Shown here piece by piece: positions 24,341 through 55,542 of a stretch of DNA of 64,000 bases. This stretch comes from Xylaria sp. FL1777 (Eukaryota > Ascomycota > Sordariomycetes > Xylariales > Xylariaceae): assembly GCA_022578965.1 (NCBI GenBank), contig MU400694.1, positions 16,831 through 80,830 of the forward strand, written 5' to 3'. Below the pieces are notes generated by a model, which saw nothing but the letters and a program-made list of their open reading frames with translations, did not search any database and was not told where the DNA came from. How positions within the stretch are numbered: position 1 is the first letter of the stretch; each line of letters starts with the position of its first letter. Made by a program: the position numbers and the translations under genes.

Positions 24341-25823
24341 ATGGCTCAACACCTCGTCTTCCACGGCACGCTCATTCACTGCCTTAGCGTCCAGCAGGTG
24401 CAGATAATAGAGAATGGCTTGATAATAATCACACCGGACGGCATCATCTCTAGTTTAGTGAAGTCGGTCGAAAAGGAGTCAGTCTGGCAACACTTGACTA
24501 CAATCGGACTGTCCAAGCCCGAATGCGATGTTCACTTCCTTGAGCGAGGGCAATTCCTCATCCCAGGTTTTGTGGATACACATAACCATGCGCCTCAATG
24601 GGCACAACGCGGTATTGGCCAGGGTATGCATATTTTGGATTGGTTGAACAAACACACATTTCGGAACGAGGCTCGCTTCTCTGATCCGGAATATGCGCGA
24701 CGTATCTATGCCAGTTGTGTCGACGGTTTTCTCCAGCAGGGCATAACGACGGCTTCTTACTACGGATCCATGCATGCCGAGGCCACCAATATTCTGGGTG
24801 ATCTCTGTCTCGAGAAGGGCCAACGCGCATTCGTAGGCAAATGCAATATGAATCGCGACGCGCCCGACTACTATCGGGACGCAACAGTCGCATCCTCGCT
24901 AAGCGAAACGCAGCAGTGTATGGCGCATATGAGAAAGATTGACCCAGAAGGCAGGCTTATCAAGTACGTGCTCACCCCTCGCTTCGCCATCACTTGCGAG
25001 GACGACTTGCTTGCTGGACTAGGAGAGATCGCCAAGTCCAATCCAGAGCTCCCAATTCAGACGCACTTCAACGAAGCCGAGCAGGAGATGTCGTTTACGA
25101 AGAAGCTATTTCCGACATTCGAGAACGAAGTTGACCTTTACAACCATTTCGGCTTGCTCACTAGGCGCTCCATCTTGGCCCATTGCTGCTACGTATCAGA
25201 GTACGAGCTAGAGCGCCTCAAGGATCTCGAGTGTGGTGTCGCGCACTGCCCTATCTCTAATATGACCGTCGGCGGTGGCTTCATGGCTGCCCCCGTGCGT
25301 GAATTCCTCCGGCGAGACATCAAGGTAGGTCTTGGAACGGACAGCGGGGGCGGGTTCTCGAGTAGCATCTTGGACGCTATGCGACAGGCCCTCGTGGCTT
25401 CGAATGCCAGGGAGGTGATGAGCCAAGGAAAGGACAAAGGGCTATCAATCAATGAAGTGTTCTATCTGGCGACGCTTGGCGGAGCTCGGGTCTGCTGTCT
25501 GAACGAGAAGATCGGCAACTTTGCTGTCGGAAAGGAGTTCGACGCGTTGTTGATCGACTCGGAGAGCCCAAGGCCGGGGATTAGTATGTGCCCACTGGAG
25601 TCATTTTCTTCCCTTTCTAGTTACCTGATGACTCCCAACATGTCTCGGGAGCATGCATCAGGGGTATAATATTTACGCAAAAGAGTAATTGCTGACTCCA
25701 GCGAACATAGTGACCATGATTGACGAAGATGATACCATGGATATCATCTTCGAGAAATTCATCATGACGGGCGATGACCGCAACATTAGAGAAGTATTTG
25801 TCCACGGGCGCAAGGTTAAATAG
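24341..25823 (+). CDS. GUD1: Guanine deaminase, interrupted by an introner-like intron
   Basis: Exons 24341-25583 and 25711-25823 encode 451 aa. The frame extends upstream to a GTG, but ATG 24341 (MAQHLVFHG) is the first ATG and fits the family. Guanine deaminase turns guanine into xanthine in purine salvage (cytosol, zinc enzyme). Visible: PGFVDTHNHAPQW with zinc ligands His81 and His83, QTHFNEAEQE, ILAHCCYV, HCPISN and GLGTDSGGG (metal-binding Asp). The second exon restores the family end FEKFIMTGDDRNIREVFVHG. The 127-nt intron splits an ATG codon after A and is nearly identical to an intron in another gene at 55106-55232. If unspliced, the protein would lose about 37 C-terminal residues and gain a 27-residue tail. 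Confidence 0.93.
25584..25710 (+). mobile_element. Introner-like element, copy A (intron of guanine deaminase)
   Basis: A 127-nt intron, GTATGTG to CATAG, that matches the intron at 55232-55106 at 123 of 127 positions, with homology ending exactly at both splice sites. CTGGAGTCA (25595-25603) and TGACTCCAG (25693-25701) are perfect 9-bp inverted repeats; outside them TATGT and ACATA are also complementary, so inverted termini reach almost to the splice sites. An internal hairpin pairs CCTGATG (25624-25630) with CATCAGG (25656-25662) and CTCCC with GGGAG. The branch site may be TGCTGAC near 25690. Compact, palindromic and duplicated precisely, it fits the introner-like elements known in fungi. 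Confidence 0.85.
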
Positions 25824-32815: not shown

Positions 32816-34509
32816 GTGGGTTCAATTTGTTACCAATATAGTAGAGTCTGAGATGTTGTCAGACATAATCATAAGCATCATGCTTTGAAACCGAAAGAAA
32901 CAGGGGGGTTATCGTAACAGATCTCTATAACAAAAATTCACTTGTGCATAAAGATATTCAACCTTAGTGTGAAACCCTAGTTAGCTCTGGACAACTTATT
33001 GAGAGCTGTGACTAATTCATTGCCATCCACCGGACTAGTGTCCTAGAACGGGCAGTAGTCTGGTTTAGAGATTGTCCCCGGCTTAGGAAGTTATTCACGT
33101 TGAAAATAGCCACAATGTATTTGGCGGTGCAGGTTGAGGCGGCGGATAGACTGATATGCTGTAGGACGAGAGTCAGTATGTATTCATACAATGGTGCGAG
33201 TGTGTTAGTGTACCTCATAACTCGGGAGTTGTGAACTACAGTAGAACAACAGATTTGAGAAACCCCCGAGAATTGTTACTTGTAGAGACGAGTGGCGCGA
33301 CGTTGTCGGCAATATTATTCACCTAGCTGTTTAAACTGGGTGTTAGTTGCAAGTAATGCCAGTATTACGCATAATACTTCATGTTACATGCTCCCGTTAG
33401 CCGTTGCGTCAATGCCAAAAGATCTGCAATACTCCAAGCCGGAGTATGTGGTACGTCTCACTTGACAAACATAAATACCATGTAGCCAACCATTGGTCAA
33501 ACAGGCCATCTTTCCATATACGTGTAACTTACATAAGGAAATAGAGTACCTTTTGAGCATATGTACTAGCCTGAAACCTTGTAATTGCTACGTTAAGTAA
33601 AGTCTCTACTCTAGAAGTGTAGTATGCTTAGGAAGACTCTAATTATGTACTAATACTAACGTGCCATGTATAAATACACCTATTTAGGTAGGTCCTGTCA
33701 TGTTACCCCAGGCTGCTGCAAGGTAGGAATTGTCAGGTGTCACGGCGGCTCCCAGATTGTATTATACCACCGTTGCTCTACTGCGTATAACCACCTTCTG
33801 GTTTGAATCAAGCGAGCCACTAACGAATATTGGGTAATTATAAGCGATAGATTGAGATGAAGCCGACATAACTGTGTACTCTAAAAGTAGTAATAAATGA
33901 TATAAGGCTAGAAAGTTGGGCTTGAGCAGCCTTTGCAACACCGGACTTCGAAAATGAAGAGAACAGCCCTGCCTTGAAAATAGGAATTAGGTCTATAGCC
34001 TGCAGCTTTCGAATCCCCAAAAAGAGCATATAAAATAACTCATAACATGTCCGAGTGCTGAAAGTTTACCTACGTGACCAGTGACTTTGGTTAAACCGAT
34101 TACAAGAACGCCAGATAGGGTTCTTTTGTTTTCCTATAGGTAACATCCGGTTACTAAATTTCGAGACAAGCGGATATGAAGTAACACGACCTATGATCAT
34201 GAAAACTTCTCCAATTTGGAGGAGACGGACAGGTAGTGTTCAACAGTGCACAAAAAGCTGTGCATGGATCAACAGTTTGATGGAAGGCCGGTGGAAAGGA
34301 GCATTGCACAAGCCTTTAGAGTTCATTCTGGGAATAAAATATATAAACTGGCGTTCTTCTCGTCAGAAGGGAAGAGTTCCAGAGTTGTTAGACATCAACA
34401 AGCACCTTCGGATCGCACCCCAACCCACTGCCAAATATTTATTACCCATTTCCTTTGAGTTTCTTCGTGTACCCATCACTTCGTCGATCTATCCTATTCA
34501 TCTGCAGCC
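32816..34509. other. Intergenic, AT-rich
   Basis: About 1.7 kb with no recognisable gene. Open frames at 33012-33218 and 33838-34029 (minus) and 34193-34534 (plus) are short and unrelated to known families. It may include degraded repeats. Confidence 0.5.
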
Positions 34510-37094: not shown

Positions 37095-38703
37095 GTTGCT
37101 TAATGTGTATACCTGGTGAGTATAATTAGGGGTTTTGTAATGGGAATAAGCGCGGTCTTGCTGGGAAAGGTTTCAAGTGTAGGTAGGCAAGTATATATAT
37201 GTGGTGCCCTCGTATGGTAATTTGTATAGGTAGCGTAGTGGTAAAAATTGGTTGTCTCTAAGAGGATGACTTGATAGATCCTGCTGCCCTGCTATATTAA
37301 TATTTGGTTGTGAAGGTGCTATGGTTACCTGCTATTAATTAGTATAGCATTACGCCAGACAAATTTCCATGACGTATGTGTGCCCAATCAGCGCTTAGCT
37401 GTTGTCTCAAAGCGGTTTATTGCTTCACAGGTACCCGAAACTAACCAGATTAGTCCCCACCATGTCGTCACTCTTTGTGACAACTTCCCCACATTTCGAG
37501 TCACAAATAACAACTCGAGAGTATAGGCATTATCAAGTCCCTACCTGATTTAGCAGATATTAGACTACAAGATAGAATTAATATGGTACATACCCTCTTC
37601 TTTCTTCTGATAATTGGCTTCTTTTAATGTTGTGTTCTTTTAACAATGTTAATACTTTTGGCACCTTGGAGCCTTTAGTCTATATAAGTTAACCTAATCC
37701 AACCTGTAAGATATAACTCGGACCAACTGTCATCGTTCACACGCTGGTGATTCCAGAACTGGTCATATTTATTGCGCAAAAACATATCTCTGTCTGTACT
37801 GGCAGAAATTAGTGTACCTAGGTACTGCTCGGCTACGGCCTGTGCTGTGAAGACTCCGTGGCTCCGGGGTCAGGTTCCGGATGGTTCCGTGACACCATCG
37901 CCAACAGCAACTACAGGACAACCCACAACTCCCACAAATTTTATTTTCTACCCCATCATAATAAAGAAAAATTGGATGGCATTGAATATCTTGGTTGTAC
38001 CGTATGTGCCTCATTACCTCTGTTCCTTCCATGTCATCGAATTACCTTCATTACGCCAGGTAGGGAGGTTGCTGAAGTTCCTGGCTGCGGGTAGTACGTG
38101 TCAACTTCTCTAGGAATATGGAAATAGGCTACACACATGATGGTCACATCACGTAGAAATTATTCCTCTAGACTTAGAATACATGGCATCCTATAAGACA
38201 TCATTAATAGATAGGATTTGTCAGTGGTAACGTAAATCTTAATAGCTTGTATTAAATCCTGAAGATGCCCCGGTGTATACATTGTGACACATACCTGAAT
38301 AACGCGGTAGAGCCGTCGCGTCAAGCTTGGAGATTAGGGCTACAGGCTCGGGTACGTGTAGGGTACACAGCTTAAAGCAGCACAAGTACCATTAGCAGCT
38401 GTAATACTTACAACACTCGTGGAAATAAAAAGTCACGAATCTAGACAGGGAAGAAATAAGGATCTCCATCACGAGAATATCAGTTGATAGCATAGTAAGG
38501 GTCAATGAGGCAAATTTATTATTATCTATCTACGACCATTAAGTCAAACCGTAGAGTGAGTCCATTTCTGCCTGAAAGTATCTACCAGCTCAGATACCAT
38601 TGCACACATGCCTTGCAGTAAAGTACATCGCAAGGCGTCAATCCAGTCGAGTCGCGTCATCGTGGGAATCGACATGGAGACAAGAGATGATGAGATGGAA
38701 GAC
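37095..38703. other. Intergenic, AT-rich
   Basis: About 1.6 kb of low coding content. A frame at 37772-38113 on the plus strand lacks family features. A 3' overlapping frame at 38544-38703 belongs to the wrong frame of the neighbouring gene. Confidence 0.5.
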
Positions 38704-39685
38704 TTAGATCTCGCCATCCTCCTCATCGTCAGTCTGTTCGCGCTTGATATAAGTGAGTTCCTCCTCATCATCGTCGTCATTCTCTTCGCGATTGGTATAG
38801 GTGAGTTCCTCCTCCTCATCGTCATTCTCGTCACGCTTGATATAGGTGGGTTCCTCCTCATCATCACGAACTTGAACAGCCTTGTCTTTCTTGGAGGTGG
38901 CCTCGGCACGAGTCTTCTTGATGCGCTTGGCGATTCTGAAAGTGAAAAGGCCGCGCTTGACGGCCTTAGAAGACGAAGCCTTGGCATGAGTCTTCTTGGT
39001 GCGCTCGACGACTCTCAAAGTGGGAAGGCCGCGCTTGACGGCCTTGGAAGACGAAGCCTTGGCAGGAGAAGCGTTGACAGCAGAAGCGTTGACAGCAGAA
39101 GCGTTGACAGCAGAAGCGTTGACAGCAGAAACGTTAACAGCAGTAACGTTGGTGTTGCCAACAGCAGCGTTGATAGTAGAAGCGTTGCTAACAGAAGCGT
39201 TGACAGCAGAAGCGTTGACAGCAGAAGCGTTGATAGCAGAAGCGTTGACAGAAGAAGCGTTGACAGTAGTAACGTTGGTGTTGCCAACAGCAGCGTTGAC
39301 AGCAGAAGCGTTGACAGCAGTAACGTTGGTGTTGCCAACAGCAGCGTTAAGCTTCTTCTTGGCAGCTGGATGAGAAGTAAGTATGAATTGTTAGTCGCGA
39401 TGTTGATTCACTATAATGATAAAAGTTACATGTCACGATGTGGGGTTAAAGGACTTACTTAAGAGAAGGTTCTGAGCGCTGCGGTGGTTGGTGTAGCCTC
39501 CGAGGGCAGCGAGCTTCTTCCAATCGATCTATAACGAGTGAGCAAGAGGAAAAAAGCTAAAGAGACGAGAGAAATTTTGTTTAGTATTTATTTACCTTAG
39601 GATTCTTGGGCAAGCATTGGAAAACTAAGGCTAGAATTCTCATCTCCTTTTCGGAAAGGACACTCTTCTTAACGTTGGCATCCAT
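38704..39685 (-). CDS. Myb-like N-terminal domain protein with VNASA repeats
   Basis: Exons 39685-39596, 39528-39459 and 39365-38704 encode 273 aa; introns are 67 and 93 nt. Residues 1-60 resemble a small helical domain common in filamentous fungi (SEKEMRILALVFQCL, then IDWKKLAALGGYTNHRSAQN, then KKKL), likely DNA- or chromatin-binding. Next comes a repeat tract of VNASA and NTNVT units encoded by a 15-bp minisatellite, then duplicated basic blocks (KASSSKAVKRGL twice), then acidic repeats ending EDGEI. The alternating basic and acidic tail suggests a nuclear protein. Function is inference. Confidence 0.75.
39060..39350 (-). repeat. 15-bp coding minisatellite
   Basis: About nineteen imperfect units of the type GCAGAAGCGTTGACA (plus strand), in frame in the minus-strand gene, where they encode VNASA-like pentapeptides. 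A 15-bp unit keeps all frames open, so long shadow frames also appear on the plus strand. Copy number is likely to vary between strains. Confidence 0.85.
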
Positions 39686-54401: not shown

Positions 54402-55542
54402 CTACAAGGTGTCTTCATCTAGAGCCTTCAGATTAAACCAATTTCGGGTCAAACTGTGCATGTCCTCTGCCTCTGCATCGTCAGCAGTGTGGCCATCATG
54501 ATCATCCATATCATAGTCATCGTAATGATAGTCGTATTGATGAGCAGGTTGGGGAATGGGTGTTTGGGGAAGAGTGGGATTGCGAGTGAGACCAGAGATG
54601 AGGGGAATCGGTGTGTGATGGAGAGTGGACATCTGTGTAGTCTGGAGAAAGGTGTTCATCTGATCTCTCATGTCTTCCATGACAACTCGAAGCTTCTGGA
54701 TCTCTGCTTCAAATCGGCTTATCTGTCCCTTGAGATTCTGAATAGCATTACTGACTTCTGAGCCGGGAAAGTTAGCCACAGAATCATCAAGATATGCCGA
54801 AGGAGGCTGAACTGTCTCGTTTCCGACGAGAGTGAAGGCTGAAGTAGATGCTGAGTTGGGGGCTGGGGTGGCCGGGTTAACATATGAAGGAGCCGTCTCC
54901 TTGGGTGCAACCATGAATTCTGGGATGATTCGGGTAGGAAAATCCACATAGCCGGGCCGAGCAGTTTGCGGTATGAATCTTCCGGCAGCATTGTTCGGAA
55001 CAAAACCAGAGTGCGGGCCGGAGACATTCTCGTCAGGCTCCAGCTGCTGATTGAGAGCAAATATCTTGGAATCAGCATCGATCTTCTTGCGGCGCCGACG
55101 GTCCACTATGCTCGCTGGAGTCAGCAATTACTCTTTTGCGTAAATATTATACCCCTGATGCATGCTCCCGAGACATGTTGGGAGTCATCAGGTTACTAGA
55201 AAAGGAAGAAAATGACTCCAGTGTGCACATACTGACATCGCTTTTGACTTCCTCAAAGATCTTCCGATTCTTAATCTCCGAAAATTGCTGAAGATTCTCA
55301 CTCTTGACACGATCTTTCCAAGCCGCCGAAATAGCCTTCAGATCGTTCGATCTAGCTCTTTCCACGCTAAGTTGGTATGGCGTAAGCCTCGCCGTGCGCT
55401 GGCGGACACGGACAGTGTTTGCGTTCGTTGAATACTCATGCGGTGCCTTGCCCTTTCTGGAAGAAGGACCACTCTGATCGCTCGCACTAGGCAATGCAAC
55501 TGGGGTCTCACTCATAGGTGAGTCCGACTGTTGCGGTTCCAT
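54402..55542 (-). CDS. Orphan protein, 337 aa, carrying the second introner-like intron
   Basis: Exons 55542-55233 and 55105-54402 (1014 nt) are joined by a 127-nt intron, phase 1, inside an ATG codon. The N-terminal part is basic and helical (LSVERARSNDLKAISAAWKD, then KIFEEVKSDVMDRRRRKKI). The middle is Pro/Ser/Thr-rich. A coiled coil follows (ISRFEAEIQKLRVVMEDMRD), and the end is rich in Tyr, Asp and His. A bZIP-like basic stretch before a later coiled coil is suggestive, but the spacing does not fit bZIP. No family recognised. Without splicing, the frame ends after a tail almost identical to that of unspliced guanine deaminase. Confidence 0.7.
55106..55232 (-). mobile_element. Introner-like element, copy B
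   Basis: The 127-nt intron of the orphan gene, read on the minus strand from 55232 to 55106. It differs from 25584-25710 at four positions only: intron positions 9, 30 and 39 and one near the 3' end. Inverted repeats are at 55115-55123 and 55213-55221. Host-gene sequences on either side are unrelated to those around copy A apart from the split A/TG codon. Confidence 0.85.

Follow-up and report, generated by a model that had tools for sequence, protein, structure and literature searches.

In the accessible text of Fekete 2025 (PMC12403724), 288 stwintrons from 14 Hypoxylaceae and Xylariaceae are described as seamless insertions at seemingly random sites. Fekete 2021 (PMC8469720) makes, in the part available, a case for reverse splicing into the genome that is based on seamless insertion in the sense strand, and according to the same part of PMC8469720 the introner-like elements of van der Burgt 2012 prefer AG/GY sites. 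Gozashti 2022 (PMC9860276), as far as its accessible text goes, reports ascomycete introner families without TIRs and without TSDs, and many families elsewhere that co-opt one splice site from the target. There is no agreement on how introns spread. For fungi the argument has relied mainly on insertions that are seamless and seem random, and these reveal little of the chemistry. The site preference of copies could help to show how new introns form.

Here we describe an introner family in Xylaria sp. FL1777 whose copies have such a preference. In the open-access literature we found no earlier report of this family or of its motif; FL1777 could be included in the supplementary tables of PMC9860276.

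Two copies of one intron in unrelated genes

The window, that is the whole stretch of 64,000 nucleotides analysed, contains two copies of the intron, each inside a gene (^ marks the insertion point in all motifs below):

24341..25583, + strand: guanine deaminase, exon 5' of the introner; start codon picked by homology
25584..25710, + strand: introner copy 1, 127 nt, inside the guanine deaminase gene
25711..25823, + strand: guanine deaminase, last exon with stop
25582..25583, + strand: target bases TA 5' of copy 1
25711..25712, + strand: target bases TG 3' of copy 1; A^TG rebuilds the Met415 codon
55233..55542, - strand: second host gene, exon 5' of the introner
55106..55232, - strand: introner copy 2, 127 nt, inside a gene of unknown function known from Xylariaceae
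54402..55105, - strand: second host gene, last exon with stop
55233..55234, - strand: target bases CA 5' of copy 2
55104..55105, - strand: target bases TG 3' of copy 2; A^TG rebuilds the Met104 codon

Both copies run from GT to AG, and they differ at positions 9, 30, 39 and 122; our re-count of equal length and 4 mismatches in 127 nt agrees exactly with the first-pass annotation of this DNA. The ungapped match between them is 130 nt long (25583-25712 against 55104-55233) rather than 127 nt because both copies are placed between A and TG, and the flanks outside are unlike. Thus the homology does end at GT and AG as had been claimed, the excess being common target bases. That both introns interrupt an ATG codon after A was also seen correctly, at Met415 in copy 1 and Met104 in copy 2. 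The first-pass annotation missed that the split ATG reflects a target preference of the whole family.

In guanine deaminase the amidohydrolase domain spans the intron junction, and the split Met415 is invariant in 23 of 23 aligned sequences; the junction itself is gap-free, and two of the 23 sequences have a two-residue gap three residues before Met415. The closest among the matches listed is from Xylaria sp. FL1042 (88%), and the gene's own deposited model is absent among the 120 matches listed. In the second host gene Met104 is invariant, and the alignment gap-free there, in 10 of 10 aligned sequences. Its spliced protein is identical over 337 aa to F5Y12DRAFT_720359 (Xylaria sp. FL1777), hence the deposited form fits excision of exactly 55106-55232. 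This gene had been called an orphan, a label that has to be dropped, since 12 further homologues were found; the 10 with a source name are all from Xylariaceae, where for some of the genera the family placement is our assumption.

Three other repeats were observed in the window. The segment 36440-36590 (- strand) belongs to another dispersed short repeat, unrelated to the introner as far as seen, with 41 genome matches (61 candidates), the other 40 at 75-86% identity. A short stretch at 33630-33750 (+ strand) has three genome places at 82-100% identity, and 38608-39462 is coding sequence with repeats of 15, 45-48 and 78 nt.

Copy number and relatedness of the family

A DNA search of the fungus's own genome with the 127-mer gave 40 scored matches (95 candidates) at 89-100% identity, 39 of which run over query positions 1-127. 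Three anchor patterns, allowing up to 3 mismatches, hit 75, 74 and 99 places, and each reversed pattern hit 0; together with the 40 scored matches this excludes chance as the source of the likeness. Merged, the anchor places number 107 on 77 contigs (55 on the + and 52 on the - strand), comprising 89 with a family A anchor and 18 with the 3' anchor only. Sixteen of these 18 were inspected and all are family members, 4 of family A and 12 of family B. Searches with family B copies added 11 more places, giving 118 in total, a lower bound for 58.7 Mb in which about half of the places are known from the matched pattern alone. The whole-genome search that the first-pass annotation had asked for therefore excludes the case of only two copies. 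Its extrapolation from density to hundreds of copies goes beyond the lower bound of 118 places, and two per 64 kb exceeds the genome average found.

For family A, motif, identity and phase were scored on 53 full-length copies out of 66 table rows; L072, with its replaced 5' end, the two rows of a single rearranged copy (L080) and 10 members of family B were set aside. L093 and L095, absent from this table, turned out to be diverged members of family B, which brings the number inspected for that family to 12. The 53 copies have a mean pairwise identity of 90% and a median identity to the consensus of 95% (lowest 79%); nearest neighbours share a median of 97.6%, and three pairs reach 99.2%. The end TAG is present in 53 of 53 and the start GT in 52 of 53, the exception at the donor being copy L023, which reads ATATGT, and outside the element only target bases are common. 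Ten family B copies were measured at 84-162 nt (two shortened), with a GTRAGY donor in 9. Judged by these sequences, family B appears to be older and diverged, and family A appears to have multiplied recently relative to it.

The reading as a recent introner, a family of ready-made introns, is supported: besides at least 118 places there are near-identical pairs, unrelated hosts, sense frames, and conserved split codons in both window genes.

Several copies have features of their own. In L072 the first 15 nt have been replaced, and an internal GTAAGT could serve as a new donor; this copy is perhaps on its way to becoming an ordinary intron by decay. At L050 (G000:C8, about 75763-76503, - strand) two same-strand copies lie 613 nt apart, possibly in one gene, and at G000:C116:54762-55130 a family B and a family A copy lie on the same strand within about 400 nt.

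Ordinary introns could also be spread by gene duplication or gene conversion, and the hosts of L057 and L079 do share a similar stretch and a common Pfam family. However, comparison of the flanks of all 53 copies found similar flanks only in this pair and in the two overlapping copies of L050, the hosts come from many families, and the intron positions of L057 and L079 differ. We consider this explanation extremely improbable. The copies in L057 and L079, both within PNP_UDP_1 genes, are separated by about two codons as judged by eye and differ in phase; they are possibly parallel gains.

Insertion in sense within coding sequence

When the intron was removed, a frame open for 150 nt on each side was found in sense in 27 of 53 copies and in antisense in 2 of 53; two frame-shifted controls gave 13 of 53 each. 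The reading frame was kept intact after removal in the subset of copies checked for this. A sense frame could be assigned to 43 of 53 copies, for some by long ORFs alone. Beyond these, 4 have a same-strand domain nearby, 2 are ambiguous (L050) and 4 have neither frame nor same-strand domain (L032, L023, L018 and L068). Six of 53 copies thus have no firm frame or same-strand domain, and some of them could be non-coding.

In a Pfam scan, 20 of 20 spliced sense ORFs, chosen for length and recognisable families and not at random, matched a family at E <= 0.001, L092 falling below the curated cut-off. The best stretch crosses the junction in 13 of the 20. L049 has a repeat array on both sides of the junction, the domains of L028 and L075 begin just 3-4 residues before it, and those of L070, L079, L063 and L021 lie on one side. 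At 19 further loci, for which 20 ORFs were submitted (all but two sense, the antisense control being scanned separately), 10 have a same-strand domain within the gene of the element or close to it, at most 392 nt away. Beyond those 10, L011 encodes a dihydroxy-acid dehydratase whose alignment to a solved structure crosses the junction without a gap; a 15-nt exon of this gene (L011:1628-1642) was seen by eye between an ordinary intron and the introner copy.

The antisense control, 22 ORFs from 20 loci of which 14 overlap the element, gave no Pfam match over an element. Its sole match is to FtsJ, in a neighbouring gene at L003 with its start 77 nt downstream; the element of that locus is inside a sense acetyltransferase ORF. 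Codon-usage scoring favours sense in 41 of 53 copies and is too weak to settle orientation.

These positions bear on the possibility that the family is a non-autonomous DNA transposon with near-terminal inverted repeats, which integrates at YATG without target-site duplication and whose ends happen to splice. For such an element, neutral intergenic copies would be expected too, yet the placed copies are all in sense in coding sequence. Antisense insertions in genes would be selected against, so sense bias alone is no proof of an RNA route. The absence of antisense or clearly non-coding copies rests on the copies inspected, and the remaining places could alter the picture.

Target site and phase

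The motif Y[AC]^TG is found at 40 of 53 full-length copies; its background frequency per position in the same flanks is 1.7% (P about 1e-59). Upstream, 31 of the 53 have C at position -2 and 17 have T; at position -1, 37 copies have A, 12 have C, 3 have T and 1 has G. Downstream, 52 copies have T at +1, 47 have G at +2, 46 have both, and 45 have a purine at +3. The copies have no target-site duplication as judged by exact flank repeats of 4-8 nt (0 of 53); 3-nt repeats occur in 2, against 0.4 in permutations. In family B, TG follows the intron in 10 of 12 copies and C precedes it in 6 of 12. Since TG is frequent there too, the TG preference predates the split of A and B, or arose twice. Element variants showed no association with the base 5' of the intron that survived correction (best of 39 tests P = 0.03), and a search by eye for base pairing of the target with the element or with snRNA loops gave nothing consistent.

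The protosplice rule is AG^G. None of the 53 copies has AG 5' of the intron, and none has G 3' of it. Such a sharp motif outside the protosplice rule is unexpected of a spliceosome-catalysed reaction and counts against a reverse-splicing-like route.

Insertion phase is also strongly biased. Long frames flank the intron on either side in 24 copies, of which 19 are in phase 1, 3 in phase 0 and 2 in phase 2; with frames from domains and abutting ORFs added (n = 43), the numbers are 34, 7 and 2. Phase-1 copies split the codons A^TG (21), C^TG (6) and A^TC (3), and G^TG, T^TG, A^TA and C^TC once each. Against a null from 37 kb of host and window coding sequence, the 31 full-motif copies have phase 1 in 25 and phase 2 in 1, where the motif predicts 43% and 37% (P = 2.5e-5 and 1.3e-5). 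The long-frame set alone gives P = 6e-4 for Y[AC]TG and 0.002-0.012 for stricter motifs. Hence phase 1 is in excess beyond what the motif leads one to expect. Five family B copies with long frames are in phase 0 (3) and phase 1 (2), so the phase rule is not common to both families.

Random insertion followed by selection for splicing or tolerance could yield motif and phase with no targeting at all. Selection on splicing is plausible in general, and a phase bias above the motif prediction is in its favour. However, selection of this kind should favour AG^G, which lacks both its sides here, and family B shares the TG; we regard it as quite improbable. Capture of the excised intron RNA, or of a double-stranded form, in the repair of DNA breaks has been proposed for the stwintrons of Hypoxylaceae, of the same fungal order, in the accessible parts of PMC8469720 and PMC12403724, and both seamless insertion and complementary arms are as in that stwintron model. 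The motif would then be a preferred break site. The model was made for random sites, whereas most copies here are at one motif, and it leaves the phase bias unexplained, which makes it a rather unlikely account of this family.

Near-terminal arms and predicted structure

Three structural features were located in copy 1:

25595..25603, + strand: 5' near-terminal arm CTGGAGTCA
25693..25701, + strand: 3' near-terminal arm TGACTCCAG, overlapping the likely branch site CTGAC
25624..25662, + strand: inner hairpin, CCTGATG/CATCAGG and CTCCC/GGGAG

We take CTGAC to be the likely branch site from the branch consensus. The arms CTGGAGTCA and TGACTCCAG are complementary, and a 9-nt match of the ends arose in 17 of 20000 shuffles. 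The 5' arm lies 11 nt in from its end of the element, and the 3' arm 9 nt in from the other. Each of the nine arm pairs is retained in 43-53 of 53 copies; the inner hairpin is mostly retained, with one pair broken in 27 of 53. In 22 sequences drawn from families A and B, pairing is seen in 88.8% of cells and falls to 20-35% once the arms are slid. Covariation is marginal, with few two-sided changes and a score matched by 24 of 500 shuffles; in family B, a copy's own arms have no pairing advantage over exchanged ones (6.6 and 6.5 of 9), RNAalifold on 30 copies found a two-sided change in 0 of 30 predicted pairs, and an Rfam search of the window gave no match. The near-terminal stem is thus real at the level of sequence; the marginal covariation and the family B arms count against the RNA route proposed below. 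The stable structure expected of such elements is supported in part: folding z is -2.8 and -4.0 for the window copies, and 14 copies range from -0.5 to -4.1 with a mean of -2.0.

The arms and the sharp motif are what a DNA transposon would offer, and Acanthoeca introners with TIRs but no TSDs are reported in the available text of PMC9860276. However, the arms begin 11 nt inside the ends. Moreover, among 74 anchor places, each with a match to another anchor as far away as expected, neither a longer element with the same 5' end nor an autonomous partner of that kind was seen. A DNA element that makes no duplication can account for the motif as well, yet it does not explain why antisense or clearly non-coding copies have so far been lacking, and on balance we think it not very likely.

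Proposed route of spread

The intron has been copied, and its copies prefer a target. Their sense position in coding sequence, their seamlessness at the sites aligned and the lack of duplication fit an RNA-based route best. We therefore consider it fairly probable that excised intron RNA is returned to transcribed coding sequence by a sequence-selective, reverse-splicing-like step.

In this proposal, the family consists of U2-type introns that have been copied to new sites within a single Xylaria genome. Every copy brings its own donor, probable branch site and acceptor, and is presumably spliced efficiently. The mobile form would be the excised intron RNA, perhaps held together by the near-terminal stem, whose relevance we assume. 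A reverse-splicing-like reaction may join this RNA to mRNA, or to the exposed coding strand of an R-loop, and the joined intron would become DNA via reverse transcription or repair. The joining step, whatever its catalyst, would read target bases that differ from the protosplice AG^G. Because the motif differs from the protosplice rule and from the randomness reported for stwintrons, YM^TG should be what this step recognises.

The phase excess also permits a bolder reading, in which placement would disregard the protosplice rule and the excised RNA would be joined at in-frame N^UG codons with the coding context sensed, perhaps in a message that is or once was translated, and then copied into the gene. 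We hold this to be unlikely. If true, it would mean that introns are gained at specific sites by way of RNA, with a target that is defined and testable. The youth of the family, its sharp motif and its phase bias together narrow down the possible catalyst and predict how empty target sites should look.

Comparison with known systems

Helitrons insert at A^T targets without duplication and have 5' TC and 3' CTRR ends. The A^T target is present in many copies of the family, yet their ends are GT and TAG, and identity with a Helitron was rejected.

The [D1,2] sister stwintrons and cropped sister introns of Hypoxylaceae and Xylariaceae, as described in the accessible parts of PMC8469720 and PMC12403724, are like the Xylaria family in fungal order, in seamless insertion, in the lack of target-site duplication and in complementary near-terminal arms. 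However, the Xylaria element is a single 127-nt intron, whereas the [D1,2] stwintron is a twin intron with another arm sequence, and the strong site and phase preference of the Xylaria family has no counterpart in those parts of the two reports. The stwintron start GTATGTATAAAAAC occurs at three places in the FL1777 genome, none of them at a family place. Identity with a [D1,2] stwintron was rejected as well: with its internal intron between the first and second donor base, the unit of a stwintron should begin G^GT, G precedes GT in 1 of 53 copies, and the deposited protein fits a single 127-nt excision.

Dothideomycete introner-like elements (Fulvia fulva, Dothistroma septosporum and relatives; Collemare 2015, PMC4457414, as far as accessible) are also multi-copy canonical introns in genes with predicted structure. 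They belong to another order, and the AG/GY preference of van der Burgt's elements (according to the accessible part of PMC8469720) contrasts with the Xylaria family, which uses no such sites. The eukaryote-wide introners in the accessible text of PMC9860276 share with the Xylaria family near-identical introns in unrelated genes, and some of those families have TIRs without TSDs. Many of them borrow one splice site from the target, whereas the Xylaria family carries both.
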